Below, piece by piece: positions 1,858 to 32,372 of a stretch of 64,000 nucleotides of DNA; position 1 is the first letter of the stretch; each line of letters starts with the position of its first letter. The notes under the pieces were generated by a model that was given only the letters and a program-made list of their open reading frames with translations, had not been told where the DNA came from and did no database searches. The position numbers and the translations under genes are program-made. The DNA is from Verrucomicrobiota bacterium. GTDB taxonomy: Bacteria; Verrucomicrobiota; Verrucomicrobiia; Verrucomicrobiales; Akkermansiaceae. Where the stretch lies: positions 1 through 64,000 of the forward strand of contig RDZR01000033.1 in NCBI GenBank assembly GCA_004294095.1, read 5' to 3'.

Positions 1858-1887
1858 GGGGATCGCCGGATATTGCCGACGATCCCC
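1858..1887 (-). terminator. Rho-independent terminator of the beta-helix gene
   Basis: Twelve-base arms at 1858-1869 and 1876-1887 pair with one G-T wobble around a 6-base loop. Read on the minus strand, the stem is followed by a T-rich tail (GTTTTGTTT). It lies about 35 bp past the stop of the minus-strand gene that ends at 1922. The rest of the 1590-1921 gap holds only a small inverted repeat near 1807-1821 (TCATGC / GCATGA) and no convincing gene. Confidence 0.7.
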
Positions 1888-1921
1888 TTGTGATTATTCT
1901 GTCAAATAGGCCGTGAGTTGA

Positions 1922-3772: not shown

Positions 3773-3916
3773 ATGTTGTTGGGTCTGTTGTTGAGAATTT
3801 CCTGAGTGTGAAAAGTTGTGGAACTTTCACTGGATTAGAAACGCCCATGGCTGCCACAAATCGAAATGCATTCTTGTGGCAGTTTCGCCACATTGCCCTC
3901 CCAGAAGGATTCGCTG

Positions 3917-6900
3917 TTAGAATGCGGCTTTGAATTCAACGGAGTAGGACATCCCCAGCTCTTCTGCCGTGTAGCTCAGCCCGTCCGACGCGCCCTCGCC
4001 GCGGTATTCATACTCGCGTTCTAATTTGGTGAGGTTTTTAATGCCGAGCGTCAATGTGCCGGTAAATGAATCGAAGACAAACTTGCGTGCGATCATTAAA
4101 TCGAGTGTGAATTGTGGCTTGAGCCAGACATCATAGGCATTCGGATCGCTGCGCAAAATGGTAGGATATTCATCCGTGAAGTTAGCTGTTAGAAATGCGC
4201 TCCAGGGCGATTCTTCGGGTTCCCAGCCTAATGTTAGATTGAGAATTTGGCTCGGCTGAAATGGAAAGCGTGTTTCCAGCTCGGTGACATTGATTCCTTG
4301 ATTAACCTCATAGAGTAAACTGGAATTGATGAATGTGTAATTCCCAGTGAGTGAAAATGGCCAGGCTTCCGGCTTCCATCGGCCTTCGATCTCGAAGCCT
4401 TTGATTTCCCCGTTGTCACCATTGATGTAGGTGTTGCTGTTGACTCCCTGATCCACCCGCTGCACCACCACGATGGGATCTAACAAATCTTTTTTGAATG
4501 CGGAGAGCGTGCAACTGATCGATTCTGTCGGTGCCCACTCGATGGAGATATCGAGGTTGCTAATTTGAGTTTCGCCAAGGCTTGCATTTCCACGGCGTAG
4601 AATGCCGGTATCTTGAGCAATGGATTCGATCGGCAAAAATTCATGAAAGGTGGGGCGGGCGACAGTTTCTGACCATGCAAGATTTACCCAGAGCTGCTCA
4701 GGGATGATATCAAGTCCGGCAAAGGCGGAGGGGATGATTGCGTTGGTCACCATCGAGCCTGTGCGGCTGGGGTCATCTTCTAACAGGCGGGTGAGGGGAT
4801 CAGCTGCGACTTGATAACTTTTGGTTTCCTCTTCCCAGCGCACACCACCGCCAATGCGCCAAATATCACCGAGAAATGATGCCGTCGAGTAAATCGAGGT
4901 AAGGCTCAGATCGCTATTGATGTTGCGAACTTCGAGGCCTGAGCCGTTGGCAAAATATGGCCCGTCTGGCTGGACATAGGTGCCCCGATTTGCTCCTGTT
5001 CCTGTGCCTGGAATACCCCCAAATCGTTCATTGCCATAACCATTGAAAAATGCGGCAAGAGCGTCTGGATTGGATGCGAGGTATTCTCCAAGCGTGCGGA
5101 ACCCGGCAGGCAAGGGCGTGCCATCCGGCATCACCGTGGCACTCAGTGGAGATCCGTTGGAAAAGGGCACCGCGGCTGAATTGGCCCACCACGCCGGGGG
5201 ATTACGCGCCACCCAGCGTTCCCAGCTCGCGGTCCGCATCAAATAGACTCTACCTTCTTGCGTGCGTTCTTTTTCTAAATCATTCACACCGAGGGAAAGC
5301 TCAAACTTGGCACCATCTTCGCGCTTATCGGTGAGGTAGAACTCTTGTTTCAATTCAGCAGAGCGCTCTTGTGCCTTTTCTTCAATGCGCTGAGTTTCAC
5401 GTGAGGAATCGAGCGAGCCAATTCCGTCGTTGACGAATGTTTGGTATTCGATCGTGCGGATTTGGCCAAGGGATGGATTATAAATCACATTCGGATCTTT
5501 TAAAGATTCGAGAAAAATGAGTGGATTGGTAAAATCTAACTGCCCGTGTTGAAAGGTGGAGGTATGTGGCCGAGACTCTGTAGCAGATGACTGGCTCAGG
5601 CCCCACGAAAAATGGGTGCCGTGATCATTTTTATGATTTCCAGAGAGTTGCATAATCTCGGTGTCCCGAATGACGGGATCGATGGTCCAAAATTCTTTGT
5701 TATACACGGCACTGGCTCCGTAGCGCGCTAAAGTCGCATCATTTTTGGCCAATGCGCCAAAGACACCATCACCCTCAATTGCGAAATTTTTGCCATGCGT
5801 GATTTGATCTGTGAGGATACGCTTGCGGAAATACGTGGCATTCAACTGGTGGTGATCACCGATTTTGTATCCGCCTGCTAGATAGAGCGACCAATCGACT
5901 TCTCGCGAATAGCTTTCCTGCAGCCATGAGCGCGAAGGCGAGGTGATGCGATTTTCGGGACCAAGCGCGTTGACCTCATCTTCTGTCGAGTGTTGAAAGG
6001 CAGCGATGAATCCTAACTGATTGCCGTTCTCGAAATCGAACTTATCACCATACACCATCGAGAAACTTTTCCCCTCCTCGGGCTTTTCCACTTTGGGCAT
6101 AAAGCCCTGCGAGTTGTGGAGTGCTAGGACACCAGCCAGCGCTTGATCTGCTTTCGCCTGCTCCTCATTGCCAATCGCGATTTGCTGCTGCTGTTGGCTC
6201 GCAGTGGGGGATCTCCCCGGCACGACGCGGTTGCCGCCGACGTTGAATGACCTCGGCTCACCATTTTCATCCAAATTCCACAACCAAGCGTCCGGAATGG
6301 CATTATTTTGGTCGCCCCAGAATCCTGGCTTGCGATTCGGGTGCACCAGCATGCGGTCCTCTAAAGTCGAGTTCCACGTCATTTTGTATTTAAACTCGAT
6401 AATTCGCTCGCTCGGGATGTTGAGCGATTGAATTTGAATCGTGCCACCGCCGAAATCGCCGGGCAAATTCGGGGAGTGGGTTTTGTTGATATTGATCGAT
6501 TGAATCGCCGTCGTCGGAAAAATATCTAACTGAACTGCCTTGCGCGATGGATCTGCCGAGGAAATTGCCGCGCCATTGAACAGCGTGGTGACGTAGCGAT
6601 CTGCTAGCCCGCGAACGACGGCGAACTTGCCGCCGACGATGTTCGCGCCCGCCACTTTTCCCACTGCGCCAGCGGCATCGCTCACGCCCGTCCGGCTAAA
6701 TTCTTCTTTGCTAATGCCAGAAACGAGCGTGTTGCTATCCGTTTTTAAACCAAGATCGAATTCTGGTTGGTCGTCTTCTTGATACTCGCCGACGATGGTT
6801 TCCTCTTCCAGGGTGACGACTTCACTTTCTCCATCCGTTGGCTTCGCTCGCAGTGCGATGCGCACTTGTGCCACCTGCGTCGGCAGCGTATTGATCAAGA

Positions 6901-7414
6901 CCGTTTCCGTAAAATAGCCGAGCTTGGTGGCCTCGATGGCAATCGCACCTTGAGGCAATCCGCTCACCTCAAATTTCCCCTGAGCACTGCTTTCCACCGT
7001 GCGGCCGGTCTCGCCGATGACGAGAAAAACGCCTGCCAAAGGATTGAGAGACATCGCATCGGAAACCTCGCCTACAATGGAACAATTGTTAGGAACGGGC
7101 GCAAGTTGCACCGTCGGCTCGGGCTCTAACACGTCATTCATGTCAGGCAGCGCGCTAGCGGGAGATGCTTTTTGCAGCATTGGGAAATCCATTTCACTTT
7201 GCTCAATCAATGGAGCCGAAGTCTCACGCTCGGTCTGGCGATACCACGAGTAAAAGGGACTTTCAGCTCGCAACGGAGCCGGAGCAGCGGCGATGAAGCC
7301 CAACATGATCACCCATGCGCGGCACCCTTGCATGGCAAGCCGAGGCCATTTTTTCAGGAAGCAAGCGTGGCGTTTTTTGAAATAAATCTCAGGGATGATC
7401 ATAAGCATTTTCAC
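3917..7414 (-). CDS. TonB-dependent receptor with N-terminal carboxypeptidase-regulatory-like domain
   Basis: A 1165-residue outer-membrane receptor. A signal peptide (WVIMLGFIAAAPAPLRA) may be preceded by an over-long N-terminus; the Met at about residue 28 is an alternative start. A CarboxypepD_reg-like beta-sandwich (VGEVSDAMSLNPLAGVFLV to LGYFTETV) spans about residues 113-175. It is followed by an acidic linker and the plug domain with VRGLADRYVTTLFNGA and PNLPGDFGGGTIQI. The remaining roughly 750 residues alternate like a 22-strand barrel and end in a terminal aromatic (EFKAAF). Such receptors import large substrates such as siderophores, glycans or peptides with TonB energy; the substrate cannot be read here. 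The gene heads a minus-strand unit with the beta-helix gene downstream. Confidence 0.88.
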   Translation of the reverse strand: MKMLMIIPEIYFKKRHACFLKKWPRLAMQGCRAWVIMLGFIAAAPAPLRAESPFYSWYRQTERETSAPLIEQSEMDFPMLQKASPASALPDMNDVLEPEPTVQLAPVPNNCSIVGEVSDAMSLNPLAGVFLVIGETGRTVESSAQGKFEVSGLPQGAIAIEATKLGYFTETVLINTLPTQVAQVRIALRAKPTDGESEVVTLEEETIVGEYQEDDQPEFDLGLKTDSNTLVSGISKEEFSRTGVSDAAGAVGKVAGANIVGGKFAVVRGLADRYVTTLFNGAAISSADPSRKAVQLDIFPTTAIQSININKTHSPNLPGDFGGGTIQIQSLNIPSERIIEFKYKMTWNSTLEDRMLVHPNRKPGFWGDQNNAIPDAWLWNLDENGEPRSFNVGGNRVVPGRSPTASQQQQQIAIGNEEQAKADQALAGVLALHNSQGFMPKVEKPEEGKSFSMVYGDKFDFENGNQLGFIAAFQHSTEDEVNALGPENRITSPSRSWLQESYSREVDWSLYLAGGYKIGDHHQLNATYFRKRILTDQITHGKNFAIEGDGVFGALAKNDATLARYGASAVYNKEFWTIDPVIRDTEIMQLSGNHKNDHGTHFSWGLSQSSATESRPHTSTFQHGQLDFTNPLIFLESLKDPNVIYNPSLGQIRTIEYQTFVNDGIGSLDSSRETQRIEEKAQERSAELKQEFYLTDKREDGAKFELSLGVNDLEKERTQEGRVYLMRTASWERWVARNPPAWWANSAAVPFSNGSPLSATVMPDGTPLPAGFRTLGEYLASNPDALAAFFNGYGNERFGGIPGTGTGANRGTYVQPDGPYFANGSGLEVRNINSDLSLTSIYSTASFLGDIWRIGGGVRWEEETKSYQVAADPLTRLLEDDPSRTGSMVTNAIIPSAFAGLDIIPEQLWVNLAWSETVARPTFHEFLPIESIAQDTGILRRGNASLGETQISNLDISIEWAPTESISCTLSAFKKDLLDPIVVVQRVDQGVNSNTYINGDNGEIKGFEIEGRWKPEAWPFSLTGNYTFINSSLLYEVNQGINVTELETRFPFQPSQILNLTLGWEPEESPWSAFLTANFTDEYPTILRSDPNAYDVWLKPQFTLDLMIARKFVFDSFTGTLTLGIKNLTKLEREYEYRGEGASDGLSYTAEELGMSYSVEFKAAF

Positions 7415-7640
7415 CCCTGCGCAACGCGCCGGATGAACTTAATCATCAACAGCCTGCCGCCGCTTCCTCCAAGTGAGGCATCGTGACGAAGTTGTAACAT
7501 TCTTTGAGAAATCCGTTCCCCGCTGCTGCTCATATTGCAGATTGCCAAACTCCGCCGTATTGGTTAAAAAACCATTCCGCCCGCCTTCAGGTGTCTTTAT
7601 CTAAGCGCGGACTATTGATCATCCATCCAACCAAACGATC
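7415..7640. promoter_or_regulatory. divergent promoter region with Pho-box-like tandem half-sites
   Basis: This 226-bp gap separates the minus-strand receptor gene from the plus-strand HD-phosphohydrolase gene, so it must contain both promoters. At 7481-7498 two 7-base half-sites, TCGTGAC and TTGTAAC, are separated by 4 bases. This is the spacing of the enterobacterial Pho box (CTGTCAT-N4-CTGTCAT), but the match is only partial. No clear -35/-10 pair was chosen. Confidence 0.25.
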
Positions 7641-9299
7641 GTGGGATATTTCGAAGCCATAAAACGCTGGCGGTTGTCGCGCCTCGGATTTTCCTCAGGG
7701 AAAAAGCGCCAAGTGAACTGCGCCAACCCAATCGTGCAGGCTCTTGAAAAAAGTATTTGGATCAAACTTTCGCTCTACTTCACCTTCATTGCGGGAACGG
7801 CCGTGCTCGTGCTCAGCTCCTCGGGCGAGATCGCCTTTGCAGATCAAGCCTTCAAACGCGCGCTTTACGCACTCGTCATCGCCGCCACCGCCGTCGTCAT
7901 GTTCCAAGTGACGATGCGCAGTCGCTCCCAGCGCAATAGCCGGCTGTTTCTCGTGCTCGGCGGCTTGATGCTGCATCTGATGATCCTAAGCGCCATCATG
8001 GGCATGGTGAATCGCGGATTTTTCCCAGAATTCTATCGCTTTTTTCTGATTCCCTTCGCGCTAGCACCCATGCTTCATGGCGTTCTGTTAGGGCGGCCAG
8101 TCGGCGCATTTTCCGCAGTCTATGTGACGCTTCTTGGTTGCTTGCTGGTGCCCAAAAATGAAGTGCTCAACTTCATGATCTTGAGCTTGGTTGGCGGAAT
8201 TACGTGTGTTCTGTTAGTCAATAAAGTGCGCAAGCGCGCGCAACTGCTGCGTGCCGGCATCTACGCAGGCGCGATGACGATGATCCTCAGCATGCTGTTA
8301 GGCAGGCTCGATATCGTGGCGGTATTTGGTGAAAATAGCATGCAGCATTTGCAAGGATTTGGCGCGGGAAGTCTGGCCGCAGTGGGCACCTCGCTGCTCA
8401 CCGCATTGATCATCAGCGGGCTTTTGCCATTTTTTGAAGGCGCATTTAATCTAACCACCGATATCAGTTGGTTAGAGCTGAGCGATTTGAATCACAAATT
8501 GTTGCGCGAGATGCAACTTGAAGCACCAGGCACCTTTCACCACAGCTTGATCGTCGCCTCCCTCGCCGAAGCCGCGGCGGAAAATATTGGGGCCAATGCG
8601 CCGATGTGCCGAGTTTGCGCCTATTTTCACGATGTCGGGAAATTGACCAAACCTGGGTATTTCATCGAAAATCTCAACGATGGCTCGGAAAATCCTCACG
8701 ATGCGCTGACCCCGACGATGAGCGCGATGATCATTATCGCCCACGTCAAAGACGGCGTGGATCTCGCTCTCAAGCACAAACTCAACCCGCGCATCCTCGA
8801 TGTGATCCAAGAACACCACGGCGATTCATTGGTCGCTTATTTTTACCACAAAGCCCGGGAAATGAAGCGGGCCGAGCTCGAAAAAGTCGGCCGTAGAATC
8901 GAAAATCCAGAAGACCTGCCAAGCGTCGAGGAGCAAAATTTCCGCTACCCGGGCAAGCGACCCAGCACGGTGGAAAGTGGCATCATCTCCCTCGCCGATT
9001 GTGTGGAAAGCGCCTCGCGCACGATTCAAAAACCGACTCCTGCGAAAATCCGAACCATGATCGATAGCATCGTGCGGAGCAAAATGGATGATGGCCAGTT
9101 AGATGATTGCCCACTCACGATTCAACAGTTAGCCATCATCAAAGATAGCTTCACCAATACGCTGCGCAGCATGATGCATAATCGCATCAGTTATCCTAAA
9201 GACGATTCGGCAACGGCTCCTCCTACCAAAAAGCTAAGCATCTCGGAGCATACGCCAACTGAAGAATCCACCGTGGTGCAGATGCCAAAGCGGGCGTGA
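7641..9299 (+). CDS. pgpH: 7TM-HD metal-dependent phosphohydrolase (PgpH/YqfF family)
   Basis: A 552-residue membrane protein starting at GTG. Transmembrane helices run from about residue 43 to 265. The family linker 'WLELSDLNHKLLREM-LEAPGTFHHSL' (about 277-303) leads into an HD domain with H301, the pair H330-D331, and further metal-ligand histidines near 368 and 392-393. Characterised PgpH proteins (Listeria, Bacillus) hydrolyse cyclic di-AMP to pApA. The immediate downstream ybeY repeats the pgpH-ybeY order known from Firmicutes. Oddly, the protein is shorter than the usual ~700 residues and appears to lack the large extracytoplasmic sensory (7TMR-HDED) domain: the first helices come almost at once. 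The C-terminal tail is low complexity. Activity on c-di-AMP is family knowledge, not shown here. Confidence 0.85.
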   Translation: MGYFEAIKRWRLSRLGFSSGKKRQVNCANPIVQALEKSIWIKLSLYFTFIAGTAVLVLSSSGEIAFADQAFKRALYALVIAATAVVMFQVTMRSRSQRNSRLFLVLGGLMLHLMILSAIMGMVNRGFFPEFYRFFLIPFALAPMLHGVLLGRPVGAFSAVYVTLLGCLLVPKNEVLNFMILSLVGGITCVLLVNKVRKRAQLLRAGIYAGAMTMILSMLLGRLDIVAVFGENSMQHLQGFGAGSLAAVGTSLLTALIISGLLPFFEGAFNLTTDISWLELSDLNHKLLREMQLEAPGTFHHSLIVASLAEAAAENIGANAPMCRVCAYFHDVGKLTKPGYFIENLNDGSENPHDALTPTMSAMIIIAHVKDGVDLALKHKLNPRILDVIQEHHGDSLVAYFYHKAREMKRAELEKVGRRIENPEDLPSVEEQNFRYPGKRPSTVESGIISLADCVESASRTIQKPTPAKIRTMIDSIVRSKMDDGQLDDCPLTIQQLAIIKDSFTNTLRSMMHNRISYPKDDSATAPPTKKLSISEHTPTEESTVVQMPKRA

Positions 9300-12419: not shown

Positions 12420-12467
12420 ACACTGTTTGAGCTTGACCCGAACGGCCCTCCATCGATACTAACCCTG

Positions 12468-13430
12468 ATGAATGAGTTAACCGCTGTTGAACTTTGTGCT
12501 GGGGCAGGGGGGCAAGCACTAGGCTTAGAGCATGCTGGTTTCCGCCATTTGGCTCTGGTTGAGATCGACGCTCATTGCTGTAACACTCTTAGAGCTAATA
12601 GAAAGGATTGGAATGTTATTCATCAGGATTTAAGGGAGTTTGATGGACGCCCCTTCAAAGGAGTTGATTTGCTGGCTGGTGGGCTGCCCTGCCCACCGTT
12701 TTCCGTTGCCGGTAAGCAGCTCGGCGATGCTGATGAACGTAATCTATTTCCGGAGGGCATTCGCTTGGTGAAGGAGACTCGCCCACGTGCAGTCATGCTC
12801 GAAAATGTCCGAGGTATTCTGGATGCCGTTTTTGAGGATTATCGCCAGTATATTTCTGGTGAGATTGCATCACTGGGCTACCGGACTGACTGGAGACTGC
12901 TGAATGCATCAGACTACAAAGTGCCGCAACTACGTCCACGCGTTGTTTTCATGGCGTTGCGCAACGATGTGAGAGGTGGTTTTCCGTGGCCAGCACCGTC
13001 ATTACTGCCTGCTCTAACTGTTGGTGATGCATTGCACGATTTACTTGCCTCAAAGGGTTGGATGATGGCTAAGGAGTGGCGCAAGCGCGCGAATGTGGTT
13101 GCTCCGACCATAGTTGGTGGTTCTAAGAAACACGGGGGACCGGACTTGGGGCCCACCCGCTCGAAGCGCGCGTGGGCATCGTTAGGCATAGATGGGATGG
13201 GGATTGCCAATGAGCCACCCGATAAAAATTTTGTGGGCATGCCGCGCCTCACAGTAAGAATGGCAGCTCGTGTTCAAGGTTTTCCAGATGATTGGGAGTT
13301 CACAGGAAGTAAGACAGCAGCATATCGTCAAGTAGGTAATGCATTTCCCCCGCCGGTGGCGGCGGCTGTAGCTGCTGGAATTTTTCAATCGCTCCAAGCC
13401 TCATCAGTTGCTAACATCGCGCTAGCTTAA
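12468..13430 (+). CDS. DNA (cytosine-5) methyltransferase
   Basis: A 320-residue m5C methyltransferase. Motifs in order: I, ELCAGAGGQALGLE (about 8-21); IV, GLPCPPFS with catalytic C75; VI, LENVRG (E112); VIII, QLRPRVVF (Q154, R156, R158); IX-X, RMAARVQGFPDDW and RQVGNAFPPPVA near the C-terminus. About 100 residues between motifs VIII and IX form a short target-recognition region containing GGSKKHGGPDLGPTR. The specificity cannot be read. The HNH nuclease gene follows after 6 bp, so the pair looks like a type II restriction-modification system with the methyltransferase first. Codon use is less GC-biased than the flanking housekeeping genes, in keeping with acquisition. Confidence 0.92.
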   Translation: MNELTAVELCAGAGGQALGLEHAGFRHLALVEIDAHCCNTLRANRKDWNVIHQDLREFDGRPFKGVDLLAGGLPCPPFSVAGKQLGDADERNLFPEGIRLVKETRPRAVMLENVRGILDAVFEDYRQYISGEIASLGYRTDWRLLNASDYKVPQLRPRVVFMALRNDVRGGFPWPAPSLLPALTVGDALHDLLASKGWMMAKEWRKRANVVAPTIVGGSKKHGGPDLGPTRSKRAWASLGIDGMGIANEPPDKNFVGMPRLTVRMAARVQGFPDDWEFTGSKTAAYRQVGNAFPPPVAAAVAAGIFQSLQASSVANIALA

Positions 13431-13436
13431 TCAATT

Positions 13437-14018
13437 ATGGGGGCACGCGACAAGTTGAGATCATATTTCCTGACCCACATAGGCAAGGTCATGAGCTCCA
13501 ATGAGCTCAGAGAAGTGGCCGGGGGAATTACTGAATGGGCTCGTAGGGTCCGTGAATTGAGAACGGAGGAAGGTTATCAGATTTTAACCCATAACGATCG
13601 AGATGAATTGAAGCCTGGGCAATATTTATTGTTAGACCCGGCACCCAAGCCAGCATTCGAGCGCGCAATATCCAAAGAGACACGGGCTATCGTATTAGAT
13701 CGCAATGGTTTTACATGTCAGATGTGTGGGGCAGTCGCTGGTGAGCCACATCCTGAAGATACGACTCGTCGCACTCGTTTGCACATTGGTCACGTGATTG
13801 ATAAATCAGTTGGAGGTTCGGATGAACCAAGTAACCTTCGCGCCATATGCTCAATGTGTAATGAGGGCGCTTCAAATGTTACTTTGGAACGTCCCAAAGC
13901 TGATAAGCTACTAATCCAGATACGCCGTGCCCCGTCTAATGATCAACTCCAAGTGCTAAAGTGGCTTATCGCTAAATTTCCGCGCCAAGCATTTGAATTT
14001 GCGACCTCTCTTCAGTAA
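13437..14018 (+). CDS. HNH endonuclease, putative cognate restriction enzyme
   Basis: A 193-residue protein. The first 60 residues look like a small winged-helix DNA-binding region (IGKVMSSNELREVAG, TEWARRVRELRTEEGYQI). The second half is a zinc-supported HNH nuclease: C94-x2-C97, then H116-I-G-H119-V with D122, GGSDEPSN133L, and C138-x2-C141-N. This order (CxxC, HxxH, N, CxxC) matches HNH enzymes of type II restriction systems and McrA-like nucleases. It begins 6 bp after the methyltransferase stop and is probably translated from the same message. Whether it cuts unmodified DNA (cognate restriction) or modified DNA cannot be told from sequence alone. Confidence 0.85.
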   Translation: MGARDKLRSYFLTHIGKVMSSNELREVAGGITEWARRVRELRTEEGYQILTHNDRDELKPGQYLLLDPAPKPAFERAISKETRAIVLDRNGFTCQMCGAVAGEPHPEDTTRRTRLHIGHVIDKSVGGSDEPSNLRAICSMCNEGASNVTLERPKADKLLIQIRRAPSNDQLQVLKWLIAKFPRQAFEFATSLQ

Positions 14019-16057: not shown

Positions 16058-19000
16058 TCACTTTACCTCCGGGGTCTCGATAAGCCAGGTTTTGGCATCA
16101 GTCTCATCCGCTCCGCTGGTGATGAGGCCCACCGCCAGCCAATGGCCATCTGGAGAAAAGGAAATATGGCGACCTGCCTCCCGCAGTGGCCACCAGAGCA
16201 ATTCGCGCCCCGTCGCAGTTTCCCAGATTTTGAGCTCGGCATCGGATGCCACGCTGGCGAGCTGTGTGCCATCGGGAGAGAAAGCCACTGCATTGACGGC
16301 GTGGCGGTGGCCATGCAGATGGTAGCTGCGCCCAGTGGCGACTTCGACCAACTGGAGCTGATTCTCCACGGATCCAGCGGCGAGGTAGCGACCCTCGGCA
16401 CTGAGATCGACGCGCTTAATCAGCGGCAACTGGAGGGAAAACCGGCCCAGCTCAGCGCCATCTCGCAATCGCAGCACTTTTACCTTTTGATCATCGCTCA
16501 TCGAAAAAGCCGCCCGTGCATCACGCGAAAGCCCGGCGTGGATAATGCTCTGCGTGCCCAGCGGATACGATGGCTCGATGAAGGGTCCGAGGCCGTGGGT
16601 CGTGATCTGGCGAGCTTGGAGATCAGCGGGATACCCCTGACGAGACCAAATCGAAAGGCTTGGTGAGCGCGAAAATCCCATGGGTATCGTTTCACCCAGA
16701 GAAAGATCTTTTTCTCCCGTGAGAGACCGCAGAGCAAAGGGTTCTGCTCCCTCGGCGATTGTCATGAGCCACTCACTTTGAGGGCTGAAAATCGGCGGCA
16801 TATACGAGTGATTTGGCACTTCCCGGCGGCGGCTCTCGCACTCACCCGGCCAAAGATGAGCCGTGCCGGACTTTACCCCAGTCATTATCTGACGCCCATC
16901 TGAACTCAGAGCGAGCGCCCAAATTTCCTCGGGGCTGCCCGGCATCACAAAGTGCGGCTCGTTTCGCGCTAACGGATTGAGGGCCCACCCGCGCAGAACC
17001 CGATCGGCACATGCGGTGATGAGCGTGCCGCCGGCAGAATTGGGTAGAAACCGCAGGGCCCAAACATCGAGCGGGTGAGGTAAAAAATTTCCCGAGAGCG
17101 ATGTAGGCGGTGAATCCGGTCGATCCAAGCTAGCGGGCAAAGACCACCACCACGCGCTCGCCCGCCCACCGGCTGCGAGCGAGCGTCCGTCGTCGGAAAA
17201 AACCGGCCGCCACACTCGTCCACTGCCTCGGAGTGAGAGCGAGAGTTTTTCCCTCTTTGGAATATCCCAGAGATCGATGCCGTCGGGCCCACCTGCAAGA
17301 GCTAAGAATTGGCCATCGGGTGACAAGGCTACATACTGCGCCCGTTCAGGAACAATCCAAGGCGTGGGCGCACTCGGTGGGCTCCAAACGCGGATCGCCC
17401 TCGGACTCTCCATCCAAGAATGGAAATCCCCTTCGCTCGTGGCTAAGGTCTGACCATTCGCCGATAGCGCGGCCTGACGGCCAGGCCAGCGCTGGAGCGG
17501 CAGTGGCATTTCTTTACCGCCGAGGGCACTCAGATCCCAGAATGTCACTTCACCTGCTCCGCTGGAGACTAAAAGCTGATTTGGCGGAAAAAATTGCAGC
17601 CCTGTAATTTCTCCCCTCAACTTCAGCGGTGGCAAATGAGCCGAGGTCTTTTTCACCAAGTCCCAAAAACGCACCTGGCCTTGACTATCGCCACTGATGC
17701 CTATCTGGCTCGACTCCCAAAACTCCACCGCGGTGACGGCGCCTTCCTCATCCTGCCGGAAGCGGGCCAGCTCGCGAGAGCGCGATTCGTTCCACAGCAA
17801 GCGCCATTCAATGCCTCGCTCTGGGGAATTAACTTGGCGCTGGAGTAGGCTACGTCCGATTTCTGGTTGTTGATGCTCGAGGATGGCGAGTGCCGCCGCC
17901 CGTATATCCGCGGCATAGTTATTTTCTTCCAATCCACGCCGGGACACTGCCTCTGCCTGCCGAGCTGTCAATTGATCGTTGTAGGCCGCGATCGCTCGTC
18001 GCCATTGCCATGTGGTGCCGATAATGCCGAGACTCACCGCTGAGATTAAAGCCGCTATCGTGCTCGCCCACGCGGGCCGTCGGCGAGCCCAGCGCCAAAG
18101 ACGATCCAGTGGGCCCAATGGCCGCGCATGCACCGGCTCGCCCCGTGCAAACCGCTCCAGCTCATCGGCCAGCGCAGCCGCTGTCGCGTAGCGCCGGAGT
18201 GGGTCTTTTTCCAGGCACTTGAGCGCCACCGTCTCCAAGTCCAAGGGCAATGAAGGATCGAGTTGACGCGGGGCAACCGGCGCATCGAGCGCCACCTGAG
18301 CGAGCAACAGCGTGAGAGATGCCCCCTGAAACGGCGGACGCCCGGTGAGAAGAAAATACAACACGCCACCCAGCGAATACACATCAGCGGGACGTCCCAC
18401 TTGCTCGGCATCGCCCGCAGCCTGCTCTGGAGACATGTAGGGTGGCGAGCCAAGCACCTCCATGCTGGCCGTGAGAAGCATATCAGACTCATCTGGTGCG
18501 AGCAGCCGAGCCAACCCGAAATCTGTGATGCGCGGCTCGCCACTGGAGTCGCGCAAAATATTGGATGGCTTAAGATCTCGGTGCAGCACTCCCTCGCTGT
18601 GCGCATAATCAACCGCCCGTGCCACCTTCGCCATGAAAAGGGCGCGTTCTCTCCAATCGATCGGCCCCGGCCACGGTGACTCAATCGACCCGCCTTCGAC
18701 TAATTCCATCGCGAAATAAGCCAATCCCTCTTCATTTCCCACTTGATAGATGGTGACGAGATACGGATGCCTCAACCGAGCCAGAAGTTGTGCCTCTTTT
18801 TCAAACCGCTGGGCAAAGGCAGGGCGCGCGAATTCACCTGCCAATAATACCTTCACTGCCGCCGGACGGTTCAAATTCTGGTGCCGCGCTCGATAGACCA
18901 CTCCCATGCCACCGCGCCCGAGTTCTTCATAGAGCTCGAACTCTCCCAAGGTCCGCGATTCCGCCAATACCATCTCCTCTGGCCCACTGAGACAATGCTC

Positions 19001-19096
19001 GATCAAGCCAAGCACATTTAGCCCCACCAAACCGGGTGGGGCGGGCGGTGGCAGTTCGGGCGCAAGAGATTCAGACATCAGGTAACTCTTTGCCAA
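16058..19096 (-). CDS. membrane Ser/Thr protein kinase with C-terminal WD40 propeller
   Basis: A 1012-residue PknB-type kinase. Gly-rich loop LGRGGMGVVYRA (about 59-70), catalytic Lys82, HRDLKPSN (D174), DFGLARL (D192), and an activation segment with LGSPPYMSPEQA. After the kinase domain (to about 315) comes one transmembrane helix (about 343-366), so the kinase faces the cytosol. Beyond the helix lie WD40-type repeats, clearest at the C-terminus (HGHRHAVNAVAFSPDGTQLASV..SDAELKIWETATG and a further SFSPDGHWLAVG). The start may be the internal Met7. It follows the ECF sigma gene by 32 bp on the same strand, so it is probably co-transcribed. Predicted role: sensor kinase for that sigma factor (inference from known sigma-kinase pairs). 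The block has almost no GTTAG words. Confidence 0.88.
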   Translation of the reverse strand: MAKSYLMSESLAPELPPPAPPGLVGLNVLGLIEHCLSGPEEMVLAESRTLGEFELYEELGRGGMGVVYRARHQNLNRPAAVKVLLAGEFARPAFAQRFEKEAQLLARLRHPYLVTIYQVGNEEGLAYFAMELVEGGSIESPWPGPIDWRERALFMAKVARAVDYAHSEGVLHRDLKPSNILRDSSGEPRITDFGLARLLAPDESDMLLTASMEVLGSPPYMSPEQAAGDAEQVGRPADVYSLGGVLYFLLTGRPPFQGASLTLLLAQVALDAPVAPRQLDPSLPLDLETVALKCLEKDPLRRYATAAALADELERFARGEPVHARPLGPLDRLWRWARRRPAWASTIAALISAVSLGIIGTTWQWRRAIAAYNDQLTARQAEAVSRRGLEENNYAADIRAAALAILEHQQPEIGRSLLQRQVNSPERGIEWRLLWNESRSRELARFRQDEEGAVTAVEFWESSQIGISGDSQGQVRFWDLVKKTSAHLPPLKLRGEITGLQFFPPNQLLVSSGAGEVTFWDLSALGGKEMPLPLQRWPGRQAALSANGQTLATSEGDFHSWMESPRAIRVWSPPSAPTPWIVPERAQYVALSPDGQFLALAGGPDGIDLWDIPKREKLSLSLRGSGRVWRPVFSDDGRSLAAGGRASAWWWSLPASLDRPDSPPTSLSGNFLPHPLDVWALRFLPNSAGGTLITACADRVLRGWALNPLARNEPHFVMPGSPEEIWALALSSDGRQIMTGVKSGTAHLWPGECESRRREVPNHSYMPPIFSPQSEWLMTIAEGAEPFALRSLTGEKDLSLGETIPMGFSRSPSLSIWSRQGYPADLQARQITTHGLGPFIEPSYPLGTQSIIHAGLSRDARAAFSMSDDQKVKVLRLRDGAELGRFSLQLPLIKRVDLSAEGRYLAAGSVENQLQLVEVATGRSYHLHGHRHAVNAVAFSPDGTQLASVASDAELKIWETATGRELLWWPLREAGRHISFSPDGHWLAVGLITSGADETDAKTWLIETPEVK

Positions 19097-19128
19097 AAAA
19101 CTCGCGTGATGACACCGTTCCTGACATT

Positions 19129-19848
19129 TTAATGGTTTTTACGTAAAATTTCGAGCAATATCTCCATTTCCTCATCGATCATTTCTGGGTCGAGGACTGT
19201 TCCGGCGATTTCTGCTCGCACGGCCTGCCGGTAGCGGCCTCGCAGACGCTGCACCGCCTGAGCGAAGGCGTTGGTCGATAGGCCCAAGGCCGCGGCGGGC
19301 ACTTGGTAATCACCATCTCGTGCTTCTTCGCACAAAAACGGCCTCATTTGGAGAAACCACTCGGCTTTTCCAGCGGTGGCAGTCTCCATTCGCAATCTTT
19401 CCAACGCCCGCCCAAGCACTGCCAGTGCCCAGCGATGATCATAAGCCTCTTCCGGAGACAAGGGCCGAGTCGCACAGAGAGCATGCTGTATTTCATGGGC
19501 GACTAATGATTCATTGAGTGAAAAAAACGACTTTCCTCCACCTCGCTTCTGCGTCATCCGCGCGCGCCAGTATTGATCGATGTGACACTGCATCGCGCTT
19601 AATAAAAACGTTCGGAATTTTCCTCGATCTATATCCGCTCGGCTCAACCATCCTTTTTCTAACAAGTGCGAAAAAAACTCCTGCGTCACATCCTGCGCAT
19701 CTTCTCTCTCCAAGCCATGACGCATCACATATGCAAAGAGCGGCGGCCAATAAGCCTGACATAAATACTCTAACGCTTTTTGCCCGTCGGGATCAAGATC
19801 GCTCGCCCGAGCAATCAGACTCCACCGGGTGGTATTAAATTTGGCCAT
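19129..19848 (-). CDS. ECF-type RNA polymerase sigma factor linked to Ser/Thr kinase
   Basis: A 239-residue sigma-70 family protein of the type found beside Ser/Thr kinases in Planctomycetes and Verrucomicrobiota. Region 2 includes LCQAYWPPLFAYVMRHG and EDAQDVTQEFF (about 49-59, T55). The region 4 helix-turn-helix is near VPAAALGLSTNAFAQAVQRLRGRYRQAV. It is longer than a minimal ECF factor. No anti-sigma gene is adjacent; the kinase gene follows directly. In Vibrio parahaemolyticus EcfP/PknT, phosphorylation of a region-2 threonine activates the sigma factor; T55 is a candidate here by analogy. A second, paralogous copy is at 32477-33172 and has Thr at the same position. Confidence 0.85.
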   Translation of the reverse strand: MAKFNTTRWSLIARASDLDPDGQKALEYLCQAYWPPLFAYVMRHGLEREDAQDVTQEFFSHLLEKGWLSRADIDRGKFRTFLLSAMQCHIDQYWRARMTQKRGGGKSFFSLNESLVAHEIQHALCATRPLSPEEAYDHRWALAVLGRALERLRMETATAGKAEWFLQMRPFLCEEARDGDYQVPAAALGLSTNAFAQAVQRLRGRYRQAVRAEIAGTVLDPEMIDEEMEILLEILRKNH

Positions 19849-20259
19849 CTATGAATAGACACTCTGTTAGCTTTTTTTAAAACTGCAAGCTATGAAGCAA
19901 ACTTCAAGTTTGAAGATTGAATCAAGTGTATTTTTGTGTGCAAGCCAGAGCTCGCTCTAAATCATGAACTATATAATCCATCTTGTAGAGCTCCGTGAGG
20001 CGCTAAGGTGTGATCATGCGGAAGCCCCATCCCTTCGCAAAAAACTGCTACCCAAGCGGCTTGTCATTGTCCGCTCGGCTCTCCCATTCAGAAACGGATG
20101 ATAAAGAGCTGTTAGCCGCCCCCGCCTTGGTTCCTCTGAAAATGTTCGTCCCCGATCATTTTTCAATAATATCGTTGACAGTGACTATTCTGCCTTATAG
20201 CGCTCCGCCCGCAAATACAAATTTATCAGTAATTGATAGCACAAAATAAACATCAAAGC
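19849..20259. promoter_or_regulatory. divergent intergenic region between sigma factor and PEP-CTERM gene
   Basis: This 411-bp gap lies between the minus-strand sigma gene and the plus-strand PEP-CTERM gene. A perfect 7-1-7 palindrome, CAAACTTCAAGTTTG, lies at 19898-19912, about 50 bp upstream of the sigma start. It overlaps a second 6-2-6 palindrome (CTTCAAGTTTGAAG). An open frame of 79 codons at 20010-20249 has no coding character I trust. No tRNA or riboswitch was recognised. Confidence 0.5.
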
Positions 20260-21144
20260 ATGAAATTTAAAAACTTTTTGAGCTTCCTCCTGCTCTTCAC
20301 GACTGCGTCGGCCAACGCGGCTGTGGTCAACTACGTCATTACAGGTTACCAGTCAGGTGGTGGCATTCAAGAGGGCACCAACACTGACGTGCCTGCGGGT
20401 GGTTCGCTAACCCAAACTGCGAATGTTCCATCAGGAGGCTTTGTCGGCAGCACTGTCAATTTCTCAATCGGGAATGCAGATGCCATCGTTGGCGATAAAT
20501 TCAATTCCGCAAATATCAACGCCCTCCCTACGGTGGCAACATTGCGTGTATCAGTCACTGCGATTTCTGCCGGGACAGAATTGATGCTTGTCCGCACATC
20601 AAACAGCCAAGGACTCCAAGACATTGGGACCATGACCGTTTTGTTGGCAAACACAAACTCAAACAACCCGAACAGTGCAACCTTCAAGTTTGAATGGTTT
20701 AATGCTGCCAACACGGCTGCTTTGACCGGTAGCCAACAAATGGTTTTCACATCCTACGACATTGACTTCACTCAGCGAAACTCTTTTGCCGTAGCGGATT
20801 ATTCAGCCATTGGATTTTCACCTGTCACCAGACTCGTTAGTTCAACCACTTCTGGAATTACAAGAGTATTTGATCCGGCTATTGGTTCCCCACCGAGAGG
20901 CTCTGATAGCAATTTTGACGAACCAAGAAACGGGTATGCATTCCTCACGGTAGCTGGCGATTTTGAGCAATCTATCTCTGTCGATAAAGCTGGTGGCGGC
21001 GCTTCGCCTCACAACAACGCCGGAAATCAGCTGTATATGATCTCTTTCCGCAGCCCGTCACCTCTGATTCCAGTCATTCCTGAGCCATCGGCTGCGATTC
21101 TTGGAGGCGTCGGAATGCTTGCGCTACTTCGCCGCCGCCGTTAG
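20260..21144 (+). CDS. PEP-CTERM sorting-domain protein
   Basis: About 294 residues. A signal peptide (FLSFLLLFTTASANA) starts from the ATG at 20260; an earlier in-frame start would place nine extra residues before it. The mature part is Ser/Thr/Asn-rich and beta-like without cysteines or catalytic motifs. The C-terminus is a textbook PEP-CTERM tail: VIPEPS, a hydrophobic helix (AAILGGVGMLALL), then RRRR. Such proteins are processed by an exosortase and delivered to the surface or matrix; no exosortase gene is in this window. It lies divergent from the first sigma-kinase pair, mirroring the PEP-CTERM gene after the second pair. Confidence 0.85.
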   Translation: MKFKNFLSFLLLFTTASANAAVVNYVITGYQSGGGIQEGTNTDVPAGGSLTQTANVPSGGFVGSTVNFSIGNADAIVGDKFNSANINALPTVATLRVSVTAISAGTELMLVRTSNSQGLQDIGTMTVLLANTNSNNPNSATFKFEWFNAANTAALTGSQQMVFTSYDIDFTQRNSFAVADYSAIGFSPVTRLVSSTTSGITRVFDPAIGSPPRGSDSNFDEPRNGYAFLTVAGDFEQSISVDKAGGGASPHNNAGNQLYMISFRSPSPLIPVIPEPSAAILGGVGMLALLRRRR

Positions 21145-28004: not shown

Positions 28005-28170
28005 TGTTAGATTCCTTAGGGTTGTGATTTACGTGAGATCTGTAAGCTAGGTGTGCTCAAATCTCCTACATGCTATCCTGCATTTCACCGCTTCAATAGT
28101 GACAGAAACTCGAAAAACCGACGGTTACAGGTCGAAAAAATAAAAAATATCATTTTCTTCTTTAATAAGA
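28005..28170. promoter_or_regulatory. divergent promoter region between ABM operon and FecA-like receptor
   Basis: An AT-rich 166-bp gap. Just before and across the receptor's first ATG the sequence AATAAGAATGAATCTCAAT resembles a degenerate Fur box (about 9 of 19 consensus positions by eye), which is weak. A Fur-type operator would fit the receptor's predicted iron role. Confidence 0.25.
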
Positions 28171-30393
28171 ATGAATCTCAATAACAATACCTGCACCATG
28201 AACCAACGCAACAAAATCTCGATGCGCGAGTTTTCACGACTTCGCACAGCATTGATTGTCGGCATTACGCCATGCATCACTGCCATTTCTTGGGGGCAAA
28301 CCAACAACCCACCAGCTCCTAGCACCACAGAAACAGTTCCAGCACAAGCCGCTGATCTCGCGGAAGTGGTGGTCACGGCAGAAACGATGAGCGATGGGAT
28401 CGTTCAGGGGCCTTTTCTTCCCGATGTGGTTGGCACCAGCATTTATGCCGGAAAAAAAACCTCGGTCATTGACTTCGATGCCATGCCGCAAATTCAGAAC
28501 GACAACTATCGTCAAGCCTTCTCAAAAACTCCCGGCCTGCTCACCAGCGAAGTAAGCAACTCCTCCCTACTCTCCTTGAGTTACCGTGGTATTGGCGATC
28601 CACATGAATCGCAAAACCTCATGGTGTTAAAAAATGGCATTCCTTTTGTCCTCGATCCGTTGGGCTACTCCACCGTCTATTTTGCGCCGCCATTTGAGAG
28701 TGTTGACCGCCTCGAATTCGTCTCCGGTGGTGCCGCTCTGCTCTACGGTTCCCAGCCTTCCGGTGCGCTCAACTACATCACCCATGTGCCTGACCGCTCC
28801 ACGCCTTTTAAGGCCACAACGCAGCACATCATAGGCAGCAATGATCTCTATTCCACCTTCAGCACACTGGAAGGCGGCAATGACAAATCCGGCTACCTCT
28901 TGAATTTGGATCATCGCTCTGGTGATTCCTTCCGCCGCCGCAACAGCGACTTCGAGCTGAACGGCGCCGAGCTTTCCTTGTTTTACGACATCGATGACAG
29001 GCAAAAACTAACCGCTACCATTGAGTGCTATGATGCCGACCACGGCGAACCCGGCGGCCGCAGTGTGGCCAACTACGCGAGTGATCGCATCGGAAACCTC
29101 CTAAATCACGACCGTGTCCGCCTCGATCGCCTGTTTGGCTCCATTGGCTACGAAGTTGGTGACGAGAGCGCTAAATGGATCACCAAGGCCTGGGCCTCTG
29201 ATGTGGTGCGCTATAGCAAACGCCAAACCGGCCAAGGTTTCGGCACGGTGACGGGCAATCAGCTGGATATCAACCAGCATACCTACTACACTCTCGGGCT
29301 CGATAGCCGCGCACTCATCGACTACCAACTCGGCGAAAATAAATCCACTTTCACTGCAGGTGTCACCGCCATGAACATCAACGCCCCCATCTTCCTTGAG
29401 CGAACTGCGGCTGGCGATCTCACTTCCGACCGTGGAGCTACCATACGCAACAAATCAGAACGAGACTCCGTTTACGCGGCTTTATTTGCTGAAAACCTAT
29501 TCCGCTTCGGTCGCTTCACAGTCACCCCTGCCGTGCGCTTGGAATACAATAAGCAATCCATCGATGAGCAAGTCAACGTCAACAGGCCCGCCAATTTATT
29601 TGACGACGTCCGCAGCGAAGTGGTGCCCCTTGGCGGCATTGGAGCCACGTTTGATAGCGGAAATGACACGGAAATCTACGCCAACGTCTCTAGTTCCTAC
29701 AAGCCACCCACATACGCGGATGCCTTCCCTCTCGGCGGCGCAGACACCTTTAGTGAGAACCTCGATGCTGGCCGCTTGGTCAACAGTGAGATCGGCTTTC
29801 GTGGCCGCCCTACTTCGTGGTCGATGTTTGATGCGAGCTTGTTCCACATCAGCTATGATAATCGCTTCGGCAGAGTAGGCAGCAATTTTCAAAACGTCGG
29901 GGAATCCGTCAACCAAGGCTTCAGCTTCACCAGCGAGATCGACTTTTACGATATGATCCATGGCGAGTCCGAGCTTTCGGTTATTTGGTATTCCGCCTAC
30001 CAGTATCTCGATGCCGAGTTTACAGACGGCCCAGTCAAAGGAAATACGCCACAATATGCGCCAGAACACATGTTGAGGACAGGCTTGATCGTGCAACGCG
30101 ATGGAAAATGGAAAATCGCCGCCATGCTGACGCACCTTTCCCAGCATTGGGCCGATGATGCAAATACCATGAACGCCACCGCCAACTGGTCGATACCTAG
30201 CTACACCGTGCTAGACATCACCGCTGAGGCACAGCTATGGTCTGGCCAATTCGCCGGAGTTCATTCCACTCTTTGGGCTCTCTGCGGCATCAATAACGCG
30301 CTCGATGAAGAATATACTAGCCGCATTCGTGCCAATGGCATCGATCCTGCCAGTGACCGGAATTACTACATCGGCATACGCGCCGAGTTCTAA
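28171..30393 (+). CDS. TonB-dependent receptor, FecA (ferric-siderophore) type
   Basis: A 740-residue outer-membrane receptor. The hydrophobic signal region is LRTALIVGITPCITAISWGQ; the exact start could be ATG 28171, 28198 or 28222. TonB box EVVVTAET (about 64-71); plug domain with QAFSKTPGLL, LSYRGIGDPHESQNLMVLKNGIPF and YGSQPSGALNYIT; then a 22-strand-like barrel with many aromatic-ended strands and a terminal phenylalanine (YYIGIRAEF). The overall pattern is that of Fe(III)-dicitrate or siderophore receptors. It lies divergent from the small ABM/DUF5069/GST operon. Substrate assignment is by resemblance only. Confidence 0.87.
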   Translation: MNLNNNTCTMNQRNKISMREFSRLRTALIVGITPCITAISWGQTNNPPAPSTTETVPAQAADLAEVVVTAETMSDGIVQGPFLPDVVGTSIYAGKKTSVIDFDAMPQIQNDNYRQAFSKTPGLLTSEVSNSSLLSLSYRGIGDPHESQNLMVLKNGIPFVLDPLGYSTVYFAPPFESVDRLEFVSGGAALLYGSQPSGALNYITHVPDRSTPFKATTQHIIGSNDLYSTFSTLEGGNDKSGYLLNLDHRSGDSFRRRNSDFELNGAELSLFYDIDDRQKLTATIECYDADHGEPGGRSVANYASDRIGNLLNHDRVRLDRLFGSIGYEVGDESAKWITKAWASDVVRYSKRQTGQGFGTVTGNQLDINQHTYYTLGLDSRALIDYQLGENKSTFTAGVTAMNINAPIFLERTAAGDLTSDRGATIRNKSERDSVYAALFAENLFRFGRFTVTPAVRLEYNKQSIDEQVNVNRPANLFDDVRSEVVPLGGIGATFDSGNDTEIYANVSSSYKPPTYADAFPLGGADTFSENLDAGRLVNSEIGFRGRPTSWSMFDASLFHISYDNRFGRVGSNFQNVGESVNQGFSFTSEIDFYDMIHGESELSVIWYSAYQYLDAEFTDGPVKGNTPQYAPEHMLRTGLIVQRDGKWKIAAMLTHLSQHWADDANTMNATANWSIPSYTVLDITAEAQLWSGQFAGVHSTLWALCGINNALDEEYTSRIRANGIDPASDRNYYIGIRAEF

Positions 30394-30504: not shown

Positions 30505-31731
30505 TCACAACTGCCAGCCGAGGCCGAAGCCCGTGAGGTGTTCTGGGGCGGAGTCATCGTCCGTGGTGTGCGTGTAGCTGTGGTGGACTTTGAGCAGAAT
30601 GTGCGGTGTGATTTGCCAGCCTGCGGCGATCTCGGCACGCCAGACATCGGGCGACCATGGCGTGGAGACATCGGCGGGGCCGCGGGCGTCATTGAAGTGG
30701 ATTTGCCCAAAACGCCCAGCGAGCCACGCGCCGGGGGCGGCTTTCCAGCGAGCTTGGATGAACCATGCCAGGCACTCGAGGTCACCGGCATCGAGGGTTT
30801 CAAAGCGGCTGGCGATGACCTCGCCGGAGAGGATGAGATCGCGGTGTGCCCAGCGGAGATCGAGGCCGAGGGTGGTTTGCTGGAGGTCCGCTAGGTCTTT
30901 GCCGGGTGGGAGTGCTTGGCTGGCAGACTCGTCAAGGTAGGCACCCTTGCTGGCGGATAGGCCGAGCGCCCATGCGGCGGTGGGGCGGTAACCAAGGCGG
31001 GCGGTGAGGGTGGGATCGCTGAAATTCCCACTGTCGAGCGTCCATGAATCTGGGTGGGAGGATAGACTGGCGTTCTTGAGTTCGAGCGCGTAGTCGAAGT
31101 GATCGATGCTACCGGTCACGGCAGCCCCCAAGGCGTAGGAAGAACCCCAGATGACGGAAGCCCAGTTTTGTGAATCGAGCTGGGAAACAGGCGGGGCGTT
31201 GCCACTGGCGCGGGCAGCAATGGCGGCGGGGCTGAGCGGACCTGGCAAGCGGCTGTGAATGCCGATGGTTTGCGCGTAGGGCAAGGGTGCGAGTAGAAAT
31301 GGGTTGTCAAAAAAATCTTGCTGATTGGCGGTTGCGCCGAAAACGGTGGGAAATCGCCCGAGCTGGAGATTCAGCCGAGCATCACCGAGTGGGCGGAAGC
31401 GCAAGATCAGCTCGTCGAGCCGCAAATCGCCGGCACTCCGCTCGCCGGGATCGAAGCCGCGATCCCAGCGGGTGGCAGTATGGAGAAACCAATGACTGCC
31501 GAGCGCCGCATCGAGACCGAGGGTGAAGCGCGGGGCGATGAATGTGGAGTCGCCATGGAAGTCGAGCAAAGCCGCAGTGGGTGCATCTCCAGCCCATGCG
31601 GTGGTTTCTAGCGATGGCCGGACTGCAAGCAGCAGAGTGCCGTCAGCAAGGCTGATCTCCCAGCCATGTTGGGCGGCGAGCTTGCTGGCAAGGGCCACGA
31701 GCGCGCAAACGGTGAAGTGGGCAGCGTTCAT
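30505..31731 (-). CDS. outer-membrane porin-like beta-barrel protein
   Basis: About 408 residues. The start at 31731 is favoured because its ATG overlaps the TGA of the upstream cupredoxin-like gene (ATGA coupling). A longer frame would add a His-rich stretch before the signal peptide AAHFTVCALVALASKLAAQ. The mature protein shows alternating strands with aromatic girdle residues (LRLDELILRFRPLGDARLNLQLGRFPTVFG, LGLDLRWAHRDLILSGEVIASRF) and ends GFGLGWQL, a typical barrel C-terminus. It is probably a 16-stranded-type porin. Coupling to a copper-type protein suggests a shared process, such as metal or redox-related transport, but that is inference. Confidence 0.7.
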   Translation of the reverse strand: MNAAHFTVCALVALASKLAAQHGWEISLADGTLLLAVRPSLETTAWAGDAPTAALLDFHGDSTFIAPRFTLGLDAALGSHWFLHTATRWDRGFDPGERSAGDLRLDELILRFRPLGDARLNLQLGRFPTVFGATANQQDFFDNPFLLAPLPYAQTIGIHSRLPGPLSPAAIAARASGNAPPVSQLDSQNWASVIWGSSYALGAAVTGSIDHFDYALELKNASLSSHPDSWTLDSGNFSDPTLTARLGYRPTAAWALGLSASKGAYLDESASQALPPGKDLADLQQTTLGLDLRWAHRDLILSGEVIASRFETLDAGDLECLAWFIQARWKAAPGAWLAGRFGQIHFNDARGPADVSTPWSPDVWRAEIAAGWQITPHILLKVHHSYTHTTDDDSAPEHLTGFGLGWQL

Positions 31732-32372
31732 GGTTTTTGAAAGTCTGCGGTGAGGGTTTGCCCAGCGGTGATGGTGATGGGTAGCGTCCATTGGTGTTTC
31801 TCATCAAGCTGTGCGTGCAGCAACCATTTGCCGGGAGGAAGCTGCGTCAGTAGGAAGTGGCCAGTCTCATCGGTGGTGGTGAAATGTGGGCTATCCACCA
31901 CTCGGATGATGGCACGCATGTGCTCGTGAATCTCGCACTGAAGGCGCACGAGGCCCGCAGTATCGAAGCGCACGGAAGGCGCGGGGTTTTCGTCTTTTTT
32001 AAAACGCCCGAGGTCAAATCGCTCCGTCCGGGACAGGGAAAATATGTTGTGATAGTCTGGATCTTCGTTAGGAAACTCGACGACGGTGCCTCGCGGAATG
32101 ACCAACATGCTTTGTGCGAACTGGTAATTTTTCTGGTCGAGAGTGACCCCCAGCGGCGTGGGAGGGGCGTGGAGACCAGGGCCTTCGATCCAGATGGCGG
32201 CGCGTGGTGGCGGATTCGGAGCGACGCGTCCAGAGATCGTGCCGGTATATTTTTCCACCGCGATGCGTGCGCCGTAGCCTGTGGGAATGGGGATTCTTCC
32301 TGAAACCTTGCCCAGCTCGGTGGCAGTGGCTGGTAGCGGGGTGGCGATCAAAAAGAGTGATAAAAGCTTCAT
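31728..32372 (-). CDS. secreted cupredoxin-like protein with carboxypeptidase-regulatory-like tail
   Basis: A 214-residue exported protein (signal LLSLFLIATPLPATATE). The central domain has type-1 copper features: VIPRGTVVEFPNEDPDYHN with H108, then C146-E-I-H149-E-H-M152, i.e. C-x2-H-x2-M. The tail (FTTTDETGHFLLTQLPPGKWLLHAQLD) looks like a carboxypeptidase regulatory-like beta-sandwich. This combination is seen in methylamine-utilisation-like/plastocyanin-related exported proteins. It is translationally coupled to the porin gene downstream. It is divergent from the second ECF sigma gene (104-bp gap). Electron transfer or copper binding is inferred from the ligand set. Confidence 0.75.
   Translation of the reverse strand: MKLLSLFLIATPLPATATELGKVSGRIPIPTGYGARIAVEKYTGTISGRVAPNPPPRAAIWIEGPGLHAPPTPLGVTLDQKNYQFAQSMLVIPRGTVVEFPNEDPDYHNIFSLSRTERFDLGRFKKDENPAPSVRFDTAGLVRLQCEIHEHMRAIIRVVDSPHFTTTDETGHFLLTQLPPGKWLLHAQLDEKHQWTLPITITAGQTLTADFQKP

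Follow-up and report, generated by a model that had tools for sequence, protein, structure and literature searches.

Kinase-linked sigma factor pairs of an Akkermansiaceae bacterium and a conserved CU31-OM30 operon divergent from one of them

The first 64,000 nucleotides of contig RDZR01000033.1 (assembly GCA_004294095.1, a Verrucomicrobiota bacterium of the Akkermansiaceae), referred to here as the window, encode two pairs of an extracytoplasmic function (ECF) sigma factor and a membrane Ser/Thr kinase. The sigma factor and the kinase are a conserved pair, and both pairs belong to a large known family. The conserved partner of the second pair is a divergent operon for CU31, a secreted protein with a type-1-copper-like motif, and OM30, an outer-membrane beta-barrel-like protein. 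The pairs are probably kinase-sigma signalling units, the second of which would read the CU31-OM30 front end and use its sigma factor to output transcription. The kinase-sigma core is of a kind already known, and the CU31-OM30 cassette is the new point; no description of it was found in a literature search that covered titles and abstract openings and left most subscription journals outside its range. The genes of the two modules are as follows.

16058-19096, reverse strand: kinase1, Ser/Thr kinase; kinase domain at residues 54-310, membrane helix at 342-360, WD40 repeats.
19129-19848, reverse strand: sigma1, kinase-linked ECF sigma factor; N-terminal TxWS motif and C-terminal extension.
20233-21144, forward strand: secreted protein with a PEP-CTERM-type tail, divergent from sigma1; its tie to the pair is unproven.
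30505-31791 (likely ATG at 31731), reverse strand: OM30, outer-membrane beta-barrel-like protein.
31728-32372, reverse strand: CU31, secreted, with the type-1-copper-like motif and a C-terminal carboxypeptidase-regulatory-like domain.
32477-33172, forward strand: sigma2, ECF sigma factor from another clade of the sigma1 family.
33191-35878, forward strand: kinase2, Ser/Thr kinase (the cassette kinase); membrane helix at 329-347 and a propeller-like C-terminal part.
35996-36832, forward strand: secreted protein with a PEP-CTERM-type tail, 117 bp 3' of kinase2; its tie to the pair is likewise unproven.

The initial annotation had described a sigma factor, kinase and PEP-CTERM module at 16058-21144 and a second at 32.5-36.8 kb, and the open frames were found at both places. 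Both kinases contain the full set of Hanks-type catalytic motifs and a single hydrophobic helix after the kinase domain. The Pfam Pkinase model matches kinase1 with E 5.8e-48 and kinase2 with E 2e-42; the WD40 model matches kinase1 with E 5.4e-29 and kinase2 more weakly (4.4e-7). Kinase1 more likely begins at an ATG six codons past the TTG than at the TTG itself. The sigma factors have a sigma-2/sigma-4 only architecture; their matches to the models for sigma region 2 and for ECF sigma factors are weak. Sigma1 was modelled with AlphaFold2 from 37 sequences (mean pLDDT 83.6), which gave two domains made of helices and a further helix at the C-terminus. Region 2 of this model can be superimposed on that of E. 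coli sigmaE (4lup; rmsd 2.0, TM 0.84 relative to the target). The annotated absence of an anti-sigma gene agrees with inspection by eye of the open reading frames adjacent to both pairs, where none was seen; no anti-sigma model was run. The idea that the two modules are recent duplicates was ruled out by their 34 percent identity and their placement in separate clades.

The pairing was followed in other genomes. The named-genome set holds 79 loci, drawn from the best 80 kept of 454 relatives confirmed in one scan, and a further 60 loci from genomes of the same order were found with a whole-length sigma profile. Removal of duplicates left 152 sigma factors, five of them from the window's own genome (3.0 Mb in 113 contigs). 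A same-strand kinase lies within 500 bp of 131 of the 152 (113 downstream, 18 upstream) and farther away from eight; no kinase was found beside the remaining 13, five of which end at a contig edge. The residue tests below use these classes: 131 linked, 13 unlinked and 8 in neither. The own genome has seven kinases and five sigma factors of the kinase-linked kind, and all five adjoin a kinase. These data bear out the part of the annotation that joins sigma factor and kinase into a pair. The fifth own pair (contig C77, 4079-7295 of its locus) has a sigma factor of a different ECF type (EAFDCVQETI). The sigma factor occurs in 86 of 145 relatives. No neighbour family dominates around the sigma factors as a whole, the largest cluster covering 10 loci. 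Kinase1 and sigma1 fall among the general family; no conserved partner gene for the first pair was found in the sampled loci, and the nearest relative of sigma1 in the sample, L146, has no neighbour of interest in common with module 1.

The second pair has such a partner. CU31 is divergent from sigma2 across a 104 bp gap, and the likely ATG of OM30 overlaps the CU31 stop codon as ATGA. The two closest relatives of sigma2 also have a divergent CU31 homologue, with no PEP-CTERM gene there. A CU31 search of the 145 relatives returned 22 strong matches outside the own genome, with E values no higher than 4e-36; a further 16 rows, weaker at E 2e-15 or above, were left out of the cassette counts. 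Within 5 kb, each of the 22 strong loci has a single dedicated transducer: an OmpR-type response regulator with a histidine kinase in nine, a membrane cyclase with HAMP in eight, and a sigma factor with a Ser/Thr kinase in five. OM30 is present in 20 of the 22, and the other two loci are cut by contig ends. Where the transducer is a histidine kinase or a cyclase, the gene for the membrane sensor shares the strand of the cassette and usually separates CU31 from OM30. The periplasmic parts of these sensors are homologous (BLAST E about 1e-8 to 1e-28). A sensor profile was made from seven cassette histidine kinases and cyclases, which it matches by construction; the sigma-linked cassette kinases gave no match to it.

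CU31 occurs in 36 of 387 sampled genomes of the phylum. The wider set adds 39 CU31 loci, classed automatically as 14 with a cyclase, 9 with a response regulator and histidine kinase, and 16 unclassed. Among the unclassed loci, a profile detects a histidine kinase in six (Pfam confirms one of these, L303, as a hybrid), L314 has a hybrid histidine kinase by Pfam, and two have a dCache/CHASE4-HAMP-Ser/Thr kinase; no transducer was found in the other seven, which are L295 and the six lowest-scoring loci. Three low-scoring loci were inspected (L327, L329 and L332), and their distant CU31 homologues adjoin cytochrome oxidase genes, not signalling genes. In the L047 cassette, a sigma factor and kinase pair comes after a hybrid histidine kinase. 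Outside the phylum, 39 records of Pseudomonadota plasmids matched CU31 and six were inspected. The CU31 homologue is directly upstream of an EAL protein in three of the six and of a short cache-domain gene in one, with neither in two. Two of the three EAL proteins were scanned, and both are dCache-HAMP-GGDEF-EAL proteins.

Phylogenies of CU31, the kinases and the sigma factors indicate how the parts have been combined. In the CU31 tree (n = 60), the six CU31 proteins linked to a sigma factor and kinase form one clade together with the transducer-less L295 (0.996). The transducer label switches at least eight times across this tree, where several of the histidine kinase labels rest on profile matches. 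In the kinase tree (n = 136), kinase2, five other cassette kinases and the kinase of L155 form one clade (0.999). The sigma partners of the cassette kinases fall into two separate clades, one with the window, L137, L138 and L141 (0.998, with L155) and the other with L189 and L246 (1.0). The single kinase clade and the two sigma clades thus suggest that the cassette retained its kinase and changed its sigma partner. L155, a close relative of sigma2/kinase2, has a divergent gene for a 2,621-residue autotransporter-like protein (1075-8937) where CU31 would be. Links between a sigma/kinase pair and CU31 number 5 compared to 0.27 expected (P about 1e-5, or 0.007 by the most generous count), in cases that share descent and are not independent. 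The cassette and kinase have remained linked in four or more gene orders and across a switch of sigma type, and persistence across gene orders is a stronger argument for the link than the P value.

The proposed mechanism for the pairs is built on these gene arrangements. The membrane kinase would place its kinase domain in the cytoplasm and its propeller presumably in the periplasm. It would control the neighbouring ECF sigma factor, with no anti-sigma factor needed, by phosphorylating it; the analogy with EcfP does not point to Thr55 as the site. CU31 and OM30 may together make up a front end in the periplasm and report redox or metal state. Kinase2 would read this front end, and sigma2 would convert the signal to transcription of a regulon that probably includes the CU31-OM30 cassette itself. 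In relatives, a histidine kinase, a cyclase or some other enzyme would take its signal from the same front end. A more specific reading, which we hold tentatively and at slightly less than an even chance, is that kinase2-sigma2 is one of several interchangeable transducers on a conserved CU31 and OM30 front end that usually has a dCache-type sensor. The propeller kinase would have replaced the dCache sensor and been kept while the sigma factor was exchanged. The same tentative reading covers the outputs across bacteria: a response regulator with a histidine kinase, a hybrid histidine kinase, an adenylate/guanylate cyclase, GGDEF-EAL, a sensor Ser/Thr kinase, and an ECF sigma factor with a Ser/Thr kinase.

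The sensing role proposed for the cassette is a prediction, as is copper binding by CU31. All four type-1 copper ligands, His, Cys, His and Met, are present in CU31 as H108, C146, H149 and M152 in a CxxHxxM arrangement. H108 is conserved in 24/24 sequences, and C146, H149 and M152 in all 23 that have a residue at these positions. The CU31 profile matches copper nitrite reductases weakly (E 0.0015 and 0.013), and the match of Cupredoxin_1 to the Comamonas CU31 homologue stays below threshold. The OM30 profile gave no match to DUF3034.

Several observations weigh against a front end that is read by the second pair. The predicted model of CU31 is all-beta and poor (mean pLDDT 55), and a fold search with this low-confidence model, which is uninformative, gave no significant match. 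L295 (genome G374) has CU31 (7775-8431) and OM30 with no transducer within 5 kb. L155 has a sigma factor and kinase of this type without CU31. Because the six linked CU31 proteins make up a single clade, their linkage probably reflects one acquisition that was kept and not six events. No clear common motif was seen when the sigma2-CU31 intergenic region was compared with those of two relatives, and this comparison was not a systematic promoter search.

The CU31-OM30 operon could instead be an output, a protective or electron-handling cassette that has recruited many unrelated regulators and has no sensing role. The divergent promoter region with sigma2 would suit an autoregulated output, and the transducers are unrelated in type. 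However, the same-strand membrane sensors with a homologous periplasmic part point to the input side, and we consider the output explanation unlikely. A different objection concerns the target of the kinase, which might be a partner other than the sigma factor, such as an unlinked anti-sigma factor, and leave the sigma factor itself unphosphorylated. This idea is favoured by the absence of any Ser/Thr position that tracks kinase linkage in the sigma set: Thr7 and Thr217 are almost invariant, and alike in the linked and the 13 unlinked sigma factors. The phosphosite cannot be named from conservation for the same reason. Direct phosphorylation is nevertheless known for EcfP and EcfK, and the inspection by eye that found no anti-sigma gene beside the pairs also counts against an alternative target, which we regard as improbable.

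The initial annotation had named a phosphosite, proposing that the kinase phosphorylates Thr55 as PknT does EcfP and that the regulon consists of PEP-CTERM surface proteins; we judge this model very improbable. Thr55 does lie within DxTQEFF in both sigma factors (DVTQEFF in sigma1, DLTQEFF in sigma2), and Thr is common at this position (134 of the 151 sigma factors with a residue there), with Ala, Leu or Val in the three alignable kinase-free ECFs of the own genome (Thr in 0/3), where a frequent Thr had been expected. In reports on EcfP (STTA) and EcfK (QATE), the phospho-Thr is assigned to position 3 of the DAED motif, and activation is ascribed to the regaining of a missing negative charge (PMC8999054, PMC13147305, PMC8103513). 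Thr is found at motif position 3 in 88 percent of ECF43, according to one of them (PMC13147305). Sigma1 has DAQD as the equivalent motif and sigma2 has RVED, and Thr55 is three residues beyond the EcfP-type phospho position. Position 52, which is motif position 3, is Q in 86, E in 47 and R in 11 of 152 and is never Ser or Thr. Position 53 is D or E in 151/151 with a residue, and position 50 is D or E in about 84 percent. The 79 named loci were picked partly by a pattern that contains Thr55, which makes the relatives the fairer sample; there, Thr55 occurs in 42 of 56, and Ala or Val replaces it in 12 of 45 kinase-linked sigma factors. In the whole set, position 55 is Ala or Val in 15 of 130 kinase-linked sigma factors, yet it is still Thr in 12 of the 13 unlinked ones. 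Thr55 was rejected as an EcfP/EcfK-type phosphosite based on its wrong motif position, the retained acidic residues and the variability of the residue. It may have a direct role as a phosphosite in some family members. Reviews already predict phospho-regulation of kinase-linked ECF groups, and one states that groups other than ECF43 retain a DAED-like motif and may use other Ser/Thr residues; a different phosphosite is therefore possible.

The PEP-CTERM part of that model was compared with chance. Both window tails share the form of the other PEP-CTERM tails of the own genome. The tail at 20233-21144 scores 18.0 bits against a Pfam cut-off of 20.7 and 11 against a TIGR02595 cut-off of 16, and the tail at 35996-36832 scores 14.1 against a cut-off of 16. 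Adjacency was defined as a PEP-CTERM tail within 2 kb of the sigma or kinase genes, and the expectation was taken from the PEP-CTERM density of each genome. The expected values are approximate, with density measured by TIGR02595 (counted up to 54 in each genome) and observed cases by a tail pattern. Across the 2.20 Mb that surround the 139 loci outside the own genome, this pattern detected five PEP-CTERM proteins, all of them in the 60 relatives' loci; none was found in the 79 named loci. In the own genome, a PEP-CTERM gene adjoins two of the five pairs (P about 0.02, computed after the fact). The 60 relatives' loci have two adjacent cases compared to 1.11 expected (P 0.31), and 20 further same-genus loci have one, L341, compared to 0.44 (P 0.36). 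Combined, these 80 loci give three cases compared to 1.55 expected, all three in the genus of the window.

Within that genus, about half of the 94 places listed were examined. The 47 loci that include the own genome, which was the source of the idea, give five cases compared to 1.11 expected (P 0.006), but the 42 loci that exclude it give three compared to 0.89 (P 0.06). At L145 (13455-14135) and L184 (5812-6552), both in this genus, the PEP-CTERM gene is on the same strand directly 3' of the kinase, and the two proteins resemble each other weakly (E about 2e-5, tails removed). The two window proteins, with their tails removed, gave no match to the other adjacent PEP-CTERM proteins, and the adjacent proteins are mostly unrelated to each other. 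PEP-CTERM genes are present in 137 of 145 relatives and also in genomes without the sigma factor (44 in G094). A general PEP-CTERM regulon is not established, given the weak excess and the lack of tails in the named loci. What is left of the predicted linkage is at most a weak, unproven tendency at the genus level, with no conserved partner gene.

The pairs can be compared with characterized systems. Like the ECF43 pairs EcfP/PknT of Vibrio parahaemolyticus and EcfK/PknS of Xanthomonas citri, they combine the gene for an ECF sigma factor with that of an adjacent Hanks-type membrane kinase and have no anti-sigma. ECF43 has exchanged DAED for uncharged residues with a phospho-Thr at position 3, whereas in the window family the acidic residues are retained, position 3 is Gln or Glu, and there is a conserved C-terminal extension. 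Of the ECF43 features, the uncharged motif and the position-3 Thr are thus absent and the neighbouring membrane kinase is present (131/152). The family corresponds to kinase-associated ECFs in the wide sense, having sigma-2/sigma-4 only, an adjacent kinase and no anti-sigma seen by eye. In this it resembles the planctomycete groups ECF59, ECF61, ECF62, ECF217 and the former ECF60, which have a kinase nearby, no anti-sigma and, according to a review, a retained DAED-like motif. At their core, the pairs belong to a known kind and are ordinary within it; the difference from the EcfP prototype is family-wide. The WD40-bearing membrane kinases of the Planctomycetota likewise have a kinase domain, a single membrane helix and a C-terminal WD40 array placed in the periplasm; unlike them, the window kinase is paired with a sigma factor. 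The cassette is similar to the pairs of a 'Methylamine utilization protein' with dCache-HAMP-GGDEF-EAL on Pseudomonadota plasmids (Comamonas, Caballeronia, Novosphingobium), in which the CU31 homologue is directly upstream of a membrane sensor. Unlike the window, the plasmid pairs output c-di-GMP. Genes for DUF3034 and a group 1 truncated hemoglobin accompany the CU31 homologue and EAL protein on the Caballeronia and Novosphingobium plasmids (L334, L335), a hint of oxygen or nitric oxide chemistry.

Two other loci of the window were also noted. A gene for a TonB-dependent receptor plug-domain protein (28168-30393) is convergent with OM30. At 12435-14018, a C5 cytosine DNA methylase gene is followed directly by an HNH endonuclease gene, and together they probably encode a type II restriction-modification system.

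Verrucomicrobiota and their relatives encode many kinase-linked sigma factors (the 454 of the single scan), mostly without a known signal or target. The EcfP phosphosite should not be transferred to sigma factors that retain the acidic motif. A cassette with constant accessory proteins and a changing output enzyme suggests copper or redox state as a candidate signal, and it would allow one input to be compared as it is read through several outputs.

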